A DNA stretch of 64,000 nucleotides from Roseburia sp. (GTDB taxonomy: Bacteria > Bacillota > Clostridia > Lachnospirales > Lachnospiraceae), in contig JAGBEG010000010.1 of the NCBI GenBank assembly GCA_017937095.1, positions 1-64,000 of the forward strand, read 5' to 3'. Position 1 is the stretch's first letter. The number at the start of each line of letters is the position of its first letter. The notes beneath the pieces are model-generated. The model ran no database searches. It saw nothing but the letters and a program-made list of their open reading frames with translations, and was not told where the DNA came from. Both the position numbers and the translations under genes were made by a program. Positions 37,566 through 48,901 of the stretch are shown one piece after another.

Positions 37566-37594
37566 TTGTTAAATTACCATCTTAATGATATAAT
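37566..37594 (+). promoter_or_regulatory. Promoter of the argS leader
   Basis: -35 TTGTTA (37566-37571), 17-bp spacer, perfect -10 TATAAT (37589-37594). The predicted start of transcription falls at the first bases of the family B leader. Confidence 0.7.
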
Positions 37595-37604
37595 TGTGCA
37601 CGTA

Positions 37605-37753
37605 AGCAATGAGCAGTGCCAAGACGTGAAGAAACAAATATCCGTGCTTGCACGAGGATATTTGTTTTTTTGCGGATTGATAGGGCGAACCGCCCAAGCG
37701 TCAGCAAAGTCGCCGCCCGAGCGGGCTCTGCTCGCGAGTTCGCACTGCGGGGT
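37605..37753 (+). ncRNA. Conserved leader RNA (family B), copy upstream of argS
   Basis: First 85 nt (37605-37689) are identical to the leader at 42742-42658 (minus) except for two bases. Elements: GCAGTGC (37613-37619) complementary to GCACTGC (37742-37748); a long hairpin AAACAAATATC...GATATTTGTTT (37632-37667) followed by T7, terminator-like; GGGCG-AAC-CGCCC; and GAGC...GCTC before the conserved TCGCGAGTTCGCACTGCGG. It ends 76 nt before argS. No T-box features. See findings. Confidence 0.65.
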
Positions 37754-37828
37754 AAATAATTTAGCGGAGCGATAGCGCGAACCGCCCCAAGTAAACATTG
37801 CTATGAAAAAAGAAAAGGAATATTTGGC

Positions 37829-39616
37829 ATGAAGAAAATATTAGATTTGATTACAGATGAAGTCACAGAGGCGTTTGCCTCCTGCGGCTACGACTCCAAA
37901 TACGGAAAGGTCACGCTGTCCAACCGACCGGATCTCTGCGAGTATCAGTGCAACGGTGCGATGGCAGCGGCGAAGGAATATAAGAAAGCGCCTTTTATGA
38001 TTGCAGACGAGGTGGCTGCAAAGCTTTGCGGGAATGAGATGTTTTCCATGGTAGAATCCGTAAAGCCCGGCTTCTTAAATTTCAAACTGAGTGAGACATA
38101 TCTGGCGGAATATGTAGAAGAGATGCAGAAGGATGAAGGGCGCTTCGGCTGTGAGGAGACGAAAGCGCCTAAGACGATCATGATCGATTACGGCGGGCCG
38201 AATGTGGCGAAGCCGCTTCATGTCGGACATCTGCGCTCCGCCATCATCGGAGAGAGCATCAAGCGCATCGGCCGTTTCATGGGACATAAGGTAATCGGTG
38301 ACGTACATTTAGGCGACTGGGGCTTACAGATGGGACTTATCATCACAGAGCTTAAGGAGAGAAAACCAGAGCTTGTGTACTTCGATGAAAAATATGAGGG
38401 AGAATATCCGGCGGAAGCGCCGTTTACCATTTCCGAGCTTGAGGAGATTTATCCGACGGCGAGCGGGAAATCAAAGGAGGACGCTGCATATAAGGAAGCT
38501 GCAATGCAGGCGACCTTCGAGCTGCAGCATGGCAGAAGAGGATATCAGGCGCTTTTGTCCCACATTTTAAATGTGTCCGTGACAGACTTAAAGCGCAACT
38601 ATGAGAATCTGGACGTTTCCTTTGATCTGTGGAAGGGAGAATCCGACGCGCAGCCGTATATTCCCGACATGGTGCAGAAGATGAAGGACGACGGCTTTGC
38701 GTACATCAGCGACGGCGCGCTCGTCGTGGACGTAAAAGAGGACACAGACACCAAGGAAATCCCGCCGTGCATGATTCTGAAATCGGACGGAGCTTCGCTT
38801 TATAATACGACCGATCTGGCGACGATTGTCTGGCGCATGAAGGATTACAATCCGGATAAATTGATCTATGTCGTGGACAAGCGGCAGGAGCTTTATTTCA
38901 CACAGGTATTCCGCTGCGCGAGAAAGACAGGACTGGTAAAGCCGGAGACAGAACTTCAGTTTCAGGGCTTTGGCACGATGAACGGCAAGGATGGCAAGCC
39001 GTTTAAGACGCGTGAGGGCGGTGTGATGCGTTTGCAGTATCTGCTCGAGAGCGTCAATGAGGAGATGCTTAAGAAGATTACGGAGAACCAGAAGTCCAAG
39101 GAAAATCTGGATATCAGCGAGGACGAGGCAAACGAGACGGCGAAGACGATCGCGCTTGCGGCAATCAAGTACGGAGATCTCTCCAATCAGGCGAGCAAGG
39201 ACTATATTTTTGATATTGACCGCTTTACATCGTTTGAAGGAAATACAGGTCCTTATATTCTCTATACGATCGTGCGTATCAAGTCCATTTTGAATAAGTA
39301 TCACGGTACGGGAAAAGATGAGGGCGGCGCGAAGATCGAGGCGGCGCATTCCCAGAGCGAGAAAAATCTGATGCTCGTGCTTGCAGGCTTTAATTCGATG
39401 ATGGAGAACGCTTATGAGGAGACAGCGCCGCATAAGATCTGCTCTTATATCTATGAGCTTGCCAATGCGTTCAACAGTTTCTACCACGAGACAAAGATCA
39501 TGTCAGAGGAGAACGAGACGGTACAGAAGTCATACATCAGACTTCTGACACTGACAAAATCTGTGCTTGAGACCTGTATTCATCTGCTTGGATTTGAAGC
39601 GCCGGAACGGATGTAG
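37829..39616 (+). CDS. argS: Arginyl-tRNA synthetase
   Basis: 595 aa class I synthetase charging tRNA-Arg. N-terminal Add-1-like domain, HIGH-type motif in PNVAKPLHVGHLRS (about 126-139), IGDVHLGDWGLQMGLII, then DGASLYNTTDLA and YVVDKRQELYF, MNGKDGKPFKTREGG in place of a KMSKS loop (common in ArgRS), and a C-terminal anticodon-binding helical domain. The ribosome site is weak (AAGGAA). Preceded by the family B leader; 81 nt separates it from the DUF4261 gene, which probably shares its transcript. Confidence 0.96.
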   Translation: MKKILDLITDEVTEAFASCGYDSKYGKVTLSNRPDLCEYQCNGAMAAAKEYKKAPFMIADEVAAKLCGNEMFSMVESVKPGFLNFKLSETYLAEYVEEMQKDEGRFGCEETKAPKTIMIDYGGPNVAKPLHVGHLRSAIIGESIKRIGRFMGHKVIGDVHLGDWGLQMGLIITELKERKPELVYFDEKYEGEYPAEAPFTISELEEIYPTASGKSKEDAAYKEAAMQATFELQHGRRGYQALLSHILNVSVTDLKRNYENLDVSFDLWKGESDAQPYIPDMVQKMKDDGFAYISDGALVVDVKEDTDTKEIPPCMILKSDGASLYNTTDLATIVWRMKDYNPDKLIYVVDKRQELYFTQVFRCARKTGLVKPETELQFQGFGTMNGKDGKPFKTREGGVMRLQYLLESVNEEMLKKITENQKSKENLDISEDEANETAKTIALAAIKYGDLSNQASKDYIFDIDRFTSFEGNTGPYILYTIVRIKSILNKYHGTGKDEGGAKIEAAHSQSEKNLMLVLAGFNSMMENAYEETAPHKICSYIYELANAFNSFYHETKIMSEENETVQKSYIRLLTLTKSVLETCIHLLGFEAPERM

Positions 39617-41025: not shown

Positions 41026-42567
41026 TTACGCGGTATATTTTGCAATTAATTCCTCAAGCGCATCCGGGTGCGCAGCGACCCACGTCTCATAGGTCATGTT
41101 TTCTGCGGAAATCATTTTTCCGAGCTCGACGAGGAATAACGGGATTTCCTCCACCGTGATCGCTTTTCCGGTATCGGCAATGCGTTCCTTGCCCTGCAGG
41201 GCGCATCCGCCGACGAAAATCGCAAACGCAGGCTTCGGACCGTCCGGCGTCTGCTTTACCGCGCCGCGGAAACCGATGTCGCCTGTCTGGTGTGCGGCAC
41301 AGGAGGAAGGACAGCCGGAAATATGAATCTTCGGGAGGACGCCGTTGGCAAAATTCTCCTTTTGCACAGCATCGACGCAGGAGCGAAGAAGCGCCTGGGA
41401 ATTGCCGACACCGACCTGACAAATGGAATTGCCGATACAGGCGACAGATGTCTCGAAAATTGTATTTGCACCGTCAGCGGTGTGGGCGAGGACTTCCTTT
41501 GCCTCGTCTCCGTTGCAGTTGATGACATAAAGCCCCTCCTCCGGGGTGAGACGGATCTCGACGTCTTCCATATCCGAAATCAGTTCATAGAGCTCTTTCG
41601 CCTTGGCAGGGGAGAGAACGCCGCCGATCGGCTGATAGAAAACGGAATAAAGCCCGTCCTGCTTCTGGGCCGTTACACGGCGGTCTGTTATCGCAGAACC
41701 GTTTCCTTTTTTCTGAATCCCGGGGATTACCGGGTCGATGTCAAGCTTCTCTGTCTTTTGCACTTCATCAAGCTTCTCGTTGTAGGCGGCAATAAAGCCC
41801 TCGGTTCCGAGCGTTTCCTGCATGAAGCGTGTCCTTGCGCGTCCGCGGTTCTCGTAATTGCCGTAGGTGGTAAAGGTGTCTACCATTGCCTTGATATAGT
41901 AGAGAATCTTCGTCGGATCAACTGCGGTTGCGACGCATGCGCCAAGGCTTGGCTTGTTTCCGAGCCCTCCGGCAGCGTATACGTCGAAGGTTCCATCCGG
42001 TCTTGACACAAAGCCAAGGTCACGGAAGGTCGCATGCGGCTCGTTGGCAGGAGAATTGGAGAAGCAGACCTTTAGCTTGCGCGGGAACTTTACGGCTTTG
42101 ATAAAGCCCATGAGGTATTCGCCGGCTTCCTTTGCGTAGGGGAGCACGTCGAAATTCTCATCCGCCTGTACGCCGGAGAGCGGGGACGCCATGACATTGC
42201 GCGGAAAATCTCCGCCGCCTCCGCGGGAAATCATTCCTGCTTTCCATGCCTCGCCGATTATCTCACAGAGGTCTTCGGCTTCTAAGTTGTGAAGCTGGAT
42301 CGACTGGCAGGTCGTAAGCTTGATCAGATCAATATGATACTGCTCACATACGTCTACGACAAATTTGAGACGCTCCTTTGTGAGCTGTCCGCCAGCCATG
42401 CGCAGGCGCAGCATATGCTTTTCGCCGCCGCGCTGTGCGTAGCTTCCGAATCCGCCGGAAAAGCCTTTGTACTCCGGTACGGTCATCTCTTTATTGTGAA
42501 ATTTCATTGTTTTTTCTTTAAATTCTTCCAGATCGGGAAGAAATTCCGTCAAATAGTCTCTGGACAT
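41026..42567 (-). CDS. Siroheme-dependent nitrite/sulfite reductase
   Basis: 513 aa. Two ferredoxin-like half domains (about 45-110 and 310-375) alternate with two siroheme/4Fe-4S domains; the cluster cysteines are in CIGNSIC (C-x5-C) and ISGCPSSC (C-x3-C), which together hold the 4Fe-4S/siroheme centre. Single-subunit form as in ferredoxin-dependent assimilatory enzymes; sulfite versus nitrite cannot be decided. Siroheme derives from precorrin-2, shared with the B12 pathway to the right. Start supported by AAGGAGG. Transcribed leftward from the family B leader. Confidence 0.88.
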   Translation of the reverse strand: MSRDYLTEFLPDLEEFKEKTMKFHNKEMTVPEYKGFSGGFGSYAQRGGEKHMLRLRMAGGQLTKERLKFVVDVCEQYHIDLIKLTTCQSIQLHNLEAEDLCEIIGEAWKAGMISRGGGGDFPRNVMASPLSGVQADENFDVLPYAKEAGEYLMGFIKAVKFPRKLKVCFSNSPANEPHATFRDLGFVSRPDGTFDVYAAGGLGNKPSLGACVATAVDPTKILYYIKAMVDTFTTYGNYENRGRARTRFMQETLGTEGFIAAYNEKLDEVQKTEKLDIDPVIPGIQKKGNGSAITDRRVTAQKQDGLYSVFYQPIGGVLSPAKAKELYELISDMEDVEIRLTPEEGLYVINCNGDEAKEVLAHTADGANTIFETSVACIGNSICQVGVGNSQALLRSCVDAVQKENFANGVLPKIHISGCPSSCAAHQTGDIGFRGAVKQTPDGPKPAFAIFVGGCALQGKERIADTGKAITVEEIPLFLVELGKMISAENMTYETWVAAHPDALEELIAKYTA

Positions 42568-42612
42568 ATGATCCTCCTTTTATTTTGCCCTGGCAGTTTG
42601 CAAAGAAACGTA

Positions 42613-42742
42613 CACCGCAGTGCGAACTCGCGAACATAGTTCGCTCGTTCACGGGCGTTCGCCCTATCAATCCGCAAAGAAACAAATATCTTCGTGCAAG
42701 CACGGATATTTGTTTCTTCACGTCTTGGCACTGCTCATTGCT
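42613..42742 (-). ncRNA. Conserved leader RNA (family B), copy upstream of the nitrite/sulfite reductase
   Basis: Same orientation relative to its gene as the argS copy. Shared 85-nt block at 42742-42658 (two differences), GCAGTGC (42734-42728 on the minus strand) able to pair with GCACTGC (42623-42617), AAACAAATATC/GATATTTGTTT hairpin (42715-42680) with a broken T tract (TTTCTTT). The middle differs in sequence but keeps hairpins: GGGCG-AA-CGCCC and GCGAAC-TAT-GTTCGC. Confidence 0.65.
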
Positions 42743-42751
42743 TTCCTGTAC

Positions 42752-42757
42752 ATTATA
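42752..42757 (-). promoter_or_regulatory. -10 element of the reductase leader promoter
   Basis: Minus strand TATAAT preceded by TGG (extended -10 pattern TGN-TATAAT). No good -35 17 bp upstream. Nine nt lie between it and the first base of the family B leader, against ten at argS. Confidence 0.55.
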
Positions 42758-48554: not shown

Positions 48555-48654
48555 CAGCAGGAAATCGTGTCCCCAATCCCTCAAATGATAAAAAATGCTG
48601 GTAAAAAGGCAGGATATATAGTATAATCCGTTCATGATAGCCATTACAGCTAAA

Positions 48655-48835
48655 TACGCATAAGGTGCCGGAAGACAAGTGATTTGTCGTTCTGGTGAAA
48701 AGGGAAACAGGTGCAAATCCTGTACGAACTCGTCACTGTGATAAGGGAGCTTCGGCAAATACGTCACTGATGCAAATCGGGAAGACTGCCGCAGGCGTTG
48801 AACTTTCAGCCAGGAGACCTGCCTTGTGTGAAGAA
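48655..48835 (+). ncRNA. Cobalamin riboswitch
   Basis: Conserved AdoCbl-riboswitch elements in order: AGGTGCC near 48663, AGGGAAACAGGTGCAAATCC (48701-48720), GTCACTG near 48734, and the B12 box AGCCAGGAGACCTGCC (48808-48823). A -10 TATAAT lies upstream at 48622-48627. It controls the cobalamin operon that begins at cbiP, very probably through the terminator that follows. Confidence 0.93.
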
Positions 48836-48901
48836 GAAACAGCCACGAGTAACTGGTCTGGTAATACATAGACGGGGATATCATACCCACGACTAACGCT
48901 G

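Follow-up and report, generated by a model that had tools for sequence, protein, structure and literature searches.

A structured element found directly past the -10 box of two genes in 64,000 nucleotides of Roseburia sp. DNA (the window) recurs at 28 loci of the same genome. Comparison of the copies establishes that it is dispersed, that it keeps a fixed position and orientation in its own genome, that its copies share a four-way-junction fold, and that it is present or absent between species. That it is a dispersed cassette whose single-strand fold is under selection appears highly probable from these comparisons. Our best explanation overall, held with middling confidence, is of a MITE-like dispersed cassette that has become a fixed 5' leader in this genome, probably with a generic role at the mRNA 5' end; the generic role taken by itself, which is suggested by position, fold and the diversity of the genes, is a tentative proposal.

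On this explanation the element, which is related to Clostridiales-1 RNA as a branch from the Roseburia lineage, would have spread through the genome in the fashion of MITEs. It would make up the initial ~130-150 nt of many unrelated transcripts or operon segments, beginning just past the -10 box or where the upstream gene ends. Transcription would start directly 5' of GCAATGAGC, and the compact fold may protect the mRNA from 5' decay, or insulate the ribosome-binding site from upstream sequence, without any sensing of a ligand.

The two copies in the window

A first-pass annotation of the window had reported two matching, sense-oriented leaders, one at argS on the plus strand and one at a reductase gene on the minus strand, and both were found as placed (Table 1). 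The repeat search pairs 37595-37690 with 42657-42752 (96 nt, 95% complementary) and 37718-37754 with 42611-42647. Both copies begin 9-10 nt past TATAAT, only two bases differ between them over the first 85 nt from AGCAATGAGC, and the second block, TCGCGAGTTCGCACTGCGG, is the same in A and B, all as had been described; the pairing of GCAGTGC with GCACTGC that had been proposed is present in the minimum free energy (MFE) folds of both leaders. Those folds have z scores of -4.92 and -4.77 (copies A and B), and none of 200 dinucleotide shuffles was as stable. The promoter scan accepts a two-hexamer site at copy A and none at copy B, where TATAAT is present and a good -35 is absent.

Table 1. Features of the window associated with the element.
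Feature	Position	Strand	Basis
Promoter-like site of argS, TTGTTA-17 nt-TATAAT (TATAAT 37589-37594)	37566..37594	+	Promoter scan and -10 spacing; directly 5' of copy A
Copy A of the structured element, 5' of argS	37605..37753	+	R1 match 37606-37750, 110.3 bits, E 8.6e-22
Copy A 5' tail, conserved, GCAATGAG	37606..37613	+	Column conservation
Copy A P1 5' strand, GCAGTGC	37613..37619	+	Fold and alignment
Copy A P2, long hairpin with CUUG loop, T7 run within its 3' arm	37620..37679	+	Repeat search and fold
Copy A P1 3' strand, GCACTGC	37742..37748	+	Fold and alignment
argS (arginine--tRNA ligase)	37829..39616	+	TIGR00456, 447.5 bits, cut-off 261.65
Copy B of the structured element, 5' of nitrite/sulfite reductase family gene	42611..42743	-	R1 match 42615-42741, 145.8 bits, E 5.8e-30
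Nitrite/sulfite reductase family gene 3' of copy B	41026..42567	-	PF01077 and PF03460 (NIR_SIR, NIR_SIR_ferr)

The identity of argS is borne out by a TIGR00456 score above cut-off. The gene 3' of copy B, annotated as a nitrite/sulfite reductase, has the domains of that family but scores below the NCBIfam cut-offs of the named enzymes it resembles. The terminator-like hairpin with T7 that had been described at argS does not survive: the T7 run belongs to the long P2 stem, in its 3' arm, rather than to a terminator tail, and it is absent from copy B. Scans of both window copies gave one terminator-like site each, on the antisense strand in both cases, and none on the sense strand; the T7 run was rejected as a terminator. 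Elsewhere in the window, a Cobalamin riboswitch (RF00174, 118.4 bits) lies at 48646-48840 on the plus strand.

Copies, positions and fold within the genome

Searched at the DNA level, the genome yields 66 matches at E <= 10, many of them partial or overlapping. The covariance-model search that had been suggested along with the first-pass annotation was carried out with a model, R1, built from 19 copies; it gives 33 matches at E <= 1e-3 (40 at E <= 0.05), which, less five that are tandem, make up the 28 loci, copies A and B included. Five entries (e20, e21, e28, e31 and e33) were excluded from one element set and the sets derived from it. At L068 (e20) and L069 (e21) all that the genome retains is the -10 block with the element's first ~25-30 nt, and the e21 site in the sister species G020 holds a full element. 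Copy B has no match among plasmids and phages (blastn, distant setting), nor does one exact pattern of the element among viral contigs.

At 18 of the 27 loci scored (e33 lay outside the scoring), a match of at least five in six to TATAAT is found 10-11 nt 5' of GCAAT. The block TATGGTATAATGTNCRCGTARGCAATGAGC is conserved in 28 promoter-type copies from this genome and its relatives; these copies were selected by their -10 box, with the stretch from -10 to GCAAT not a criterion, so that conservation of the hexamer is partly by choice. The -35 is weak, the mean best match in the same 28 copies being 3.68 of 6, where shuffles average 2.97 and reach 3.32 at most. At eight of the 28 loci (e07, e10, e14, e15, e26, e33, G000_C3 and G000_C13) a co-directional upstream frame has its stop about -2 to +10 nt from the 5' end of the element; e14b is a ninth case, in which such a frame enters the element by ~50 nt, while e09 falls in neither the promoter-type nor the upstream-stop group. 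The coding ends resemble the promoter block at e14, e15 and G000_C3 (0.0003, 0.0001 and 0.0024 of background) and are unlike it at e07, e26 and e09 (0.53, 0.87 and 0.88); over ten operon-internal sites, the resemblance has a combined p of 3e-8. Some operon-internal copies, at L062, L153 and other loci, reach back over the final codons of the gene before them or provide that gene with its stop (the TGA in GCAATGAG), and the copies at L360 and L173 immediately follow what looks like a tRNA gene's 3' end.

The next open frame is co-directional with the element at 26 of the 28 loci by an automatic rule and at all 28 on inspection. The two exceptions to the rule are e08, where an antisense frame of 147 aa covers the element and the next real gene, for L-threonylcarbamoyladenylate synthase, is in the sense orientation, and e24, where the only sense frame that fits is one of 75 aa, cut by the contig end and with no Pfam match.

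The four-way junction drawn from the 19 copies has 37 pairs, of which 29 show two-sided changes. In an alignment of 72 matches from this genome and its relatives the number rises to 35 of 37, against a shuffled mean of 25.1, and 94.6% of cells are paired against 72.1% in shuffles (none of 500 as high), figures that lean toward the model, since the alignment was fitted to R1; it also includes partial tandem units, and the shuffles do not preserve relatedness. Sliding the partner columns by 1-3 lowers pairing in that alignment to 49.5% or less. The structured sense leader adjoining a -10 box that had been proposed is thus supported, with strong covariation. G-U cells outnumber A-C cells by 110 to 28 (24 to 5 by pairs, and 80 to 24 after dropping pairs with G-U above 30%), in cells that are not independent and in the same model-fitted alignment; the excess points to selection on one strand, with RNA as the simplest reading of that strand and a single-stranded DNA stage also possible. 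The stems are free to vary in sequence, but the CUUG loop and the GGGCGAA stretch stay; likewise P2 diverges among copies, drifting with compensation, while the 5' block TATGGTATAATGTNCRCGTARGCAATGAGC is kept. The ends of the element are slightly more complementary within copies than across them (5.12 against 4.73, permutation p 0.009), an effect due to a few copies.

Orthologous sites and other genomes

At E <= 1e-3, 15 of 40 genomes have R1 matches, the richest relative being G020 with 16; with stricter filters and E <= 1e-5, 18 of 196 genomes from the order have them. This genome is counted in both totals. The 38 loci of relatives divide by the automatic rule into 28 co-directional, seven opposed and three without a gene, a count that omits G020_8b, G000_C8x and five single-match places in G004, G006, G007, G011 and G013. 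Three of them (G020_12, G023_1 and G002_3) are opposed on inspection as well, and some of the other opposed calls are small antisense frames. For other genera, 11 of the 31 places that the scan of the order gave outside this genome were read and 10 copies placed (L358 being unplaced): five face an opposed gene, four enter a called co-directional gene, two of these four looking orthologous, and one is cut by the contig end. A leader role is therefore not general, and the leader reading is limited to the Roseburia lineage. Random orientation had been named in the first-pass annotation among the results that would count against a leader; orientation is sense throughout this genome, and mixed in other genera.

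Judged by flanking proteins, G020 retains the element at argS, mutS2, the threonylcarbamoyladenylate synthase gene, two ABC transporter sites and others, and one ABC transporter site holds it in G000 (this genome), G020, G019 and G023. Among 98 argS loci R1 matches only L179 and L260, which are both the same G020 locus. L179 is also the best named match to the argS here, a MAG labelled R. hominis with 95% identity, and R. inulinivorans comes next with 86% (L180). At truA, this genome and G020 agree at 64 of 68 nt through the -10; the leader that follows is 217 nt long here and 32 nt in G020, where it has no R1 match of note. The addB and spoVAE sites of G020 hold what appear to be internally deleted remnants of the element. 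The reductase genes of the two species likewise align over 68 nt through the -10 (score 68, shuffled maximum 51), whereas their leaders, less the last 40 nt, do not (score 64, shuffled maximum 68). At the site of copy B, G020 has a different leader (L311:1326-1475) with ATATAATGAGCGC at both ends; it gave no Rfam match at E <= 2 and only 5.6 bits with R1 (E 3.6), and the fold of this one locus is modestly better than shuffles, 7 of 200 of which match it (z -2.2).

A broader and rather unlikely proposal would be that transcript starts in these bacteria hold exchangeable structured leader cassettes, unrelated families beginning directly past a locus-specific -10, swapping between sister species at the same gene, and inserting preferentially at a -10 or at the end of an upstream gene. 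If cassettes do exchange at the start site, this bears on the origin of 5' leaders.

Clostridiales-1 RNA and alternative readings

The element had been put forward as a candidate new cis-regulatory RNA, and it is not wholly new: by its alignments it is a relative of Clostridiales-1 RNA (RF01699), below the curated membership score. Copy A aligns with that model over its full length (1-166) on the element strand, at 23.6 bits (E 0.0052 in 501 bases), and six of 20 loci tested from the same genome match full length at E <= 0.5, with 25.4 to 41.6 bits and a best E of 9.8e-6; all these matches are on the element and on its strand, and neither copy A nor the best of the loci reaches the gathering score of 48 bits. 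A different element of the genome, G000:C14:152227, scores 62.8 bits. In the same search an unrelated miRNA model matches the element's long hairpin with E 0.001, so E-values for hairpins need care, and the link to Clostridiales-1 rests also on the full-length architecture. Two alignments and the folds give the same order of a closing P1, a long P2 with GCUUGC apex, P3 and P4; the internal loop of the family's P4 (GGGAG / CGGAG), in contrast, is not seen in the element by eye. The literature searched gave no description of this placement of the element among the matches listed.

In G014 and G016, 15 contexts of RF01699 matches were read (nine of 19 in G014, six of seven in G016), with 10 co-directional with the next gene and five opposed, some being orthologous pairs. 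Ten closely similar copies have a sharp left end, TGATTAA or a one-base variant, and left flanks that, outside a single orthologous pair, are unrelated. TTAATCA is the right end of eight, and about seven extend into a further common stretch. From these ends and flanks the RF01699 copies of the two genomes (L280-L294) look mobile and MITE-like.

MITEs and small palindromic repeats of the REP/REPIN type are dispersed and structured. The element is like them in both respects and in the end complementarity of a few copies, and it shows the combination expected of a MITE, dispersed copies with presence and absence between relatives; it differs in being sense-only at transcript starts in its own genome, and no target duplication was identified. 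It may be no more than selfish DNA of this kind, its hairpins serving transposition (e.g., as single-stranded DNA) with no benefit to the host and its insertion favouring the stretch after the -10. The number of copies in this genome, the differences at truA and among the argS loci, the opposed copies in other genera, and the two orientations and sharp left end of the Clostridiales-1 copies are all in line with that idea, which we nevertheless consider somewhat unlikely, given the uniform sense orientation here, the retention of the 5' block while P2 drifts with compensation, and the copies kept at orthologous sites such as the ABC transporter site of four genomes. The alternative offered in the first-pass annotation, of a repeat carried beside promoters, fits better than its preferred one: there are 28 loci, presence and absence between sister species, and mixed orientation elsewhere. 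The leader cassette that we favour could be an example of a mobile repeat turned standard piece of mRNA.

An independent small RNA with its own transcript, incidentally placed 5' of genes, is improbable. Rfam files Clostridiales-1 as an sRNA gene, the accessible text of the 2010 paper describes the motif as a likely RNA marked not cis-regulatory (PMC2864571), and some copies do face an opposed gene; against this, neither window copy has a sense-strand terminator-like site around it in the scans of the two, and in this genome a co-directional frame comes next. Clostridiales-1 is an orphan RNA, with no function given by Rfam or in the accessible text of PMC2864571, and a sense-only leader in one lineage alongside mobile-looking copies in another offers a route to its function.

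The genes downstream were scanned for families at 27 of the 28 loci (all but G000_C13). They include argS, the NirA-like reductase, mutS2, aroA, ilvH, the threonylcarbamoyladenylate synthase gene and one for an adenylation-domain protein; an alpha-amylase family member, an EamA transporter, an NlpC/P60 protein, spoVAE-like, addB, truA-like and NfeD-like genes and SseB; and nrdD, a UvrD/PcrA helicase, a histidine kinase, an MscS-like channel, a LytTR protein and others. The frames at e05, e07 and e24 have family matches that are absent or below cut-off. No shared pathway or function is seen among the 27 scanned. The attenuator or riboswitch-like leader for a shared signal that the first-pass annotation had preferred would suit the sense 5' position and complex fold, but it is very improbable, the terminator-like sites of the window copies being antisense only, the downstream genes unrelated, the stems free to vary around a constant CUUG loop and GGGCGAA, and the element a remnant or missing at orthologous genes. 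The 5' stabiliser leaders, such as those of Bacillus aprE and E. coli ompA, are another known kind to compare: like them the element has a stable fold close to the presumed mRNA 5' end, though unlike them it is one family common to many genes.

A leader peptide was also considered and rejected. A start codon overlaps GCAATGAGC in most of 60 copies (ATG in 50, TTG in three, GTG in one), and TGATAG, found in 56 copies, lies at a distance divisible by three in 48 of them; however, 19 of the 60 frames end at codon 7, and as many of the distinct lengths are multiples of three (66, 69, 72, 81) as are not (67, 68, 70, 74).

A second repeat family, GGTATAATGTCGTTAGACATTATACC, has 11 matches in this genome at up to three mismatches, and none in a reversed control; it occurs at G000:C9:3346-3553 and other loci (L324-L334), and stands in tandem beside one copy of the element. 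Another Roseburia has a stretch similar to this repeat in its argS leader (L186).
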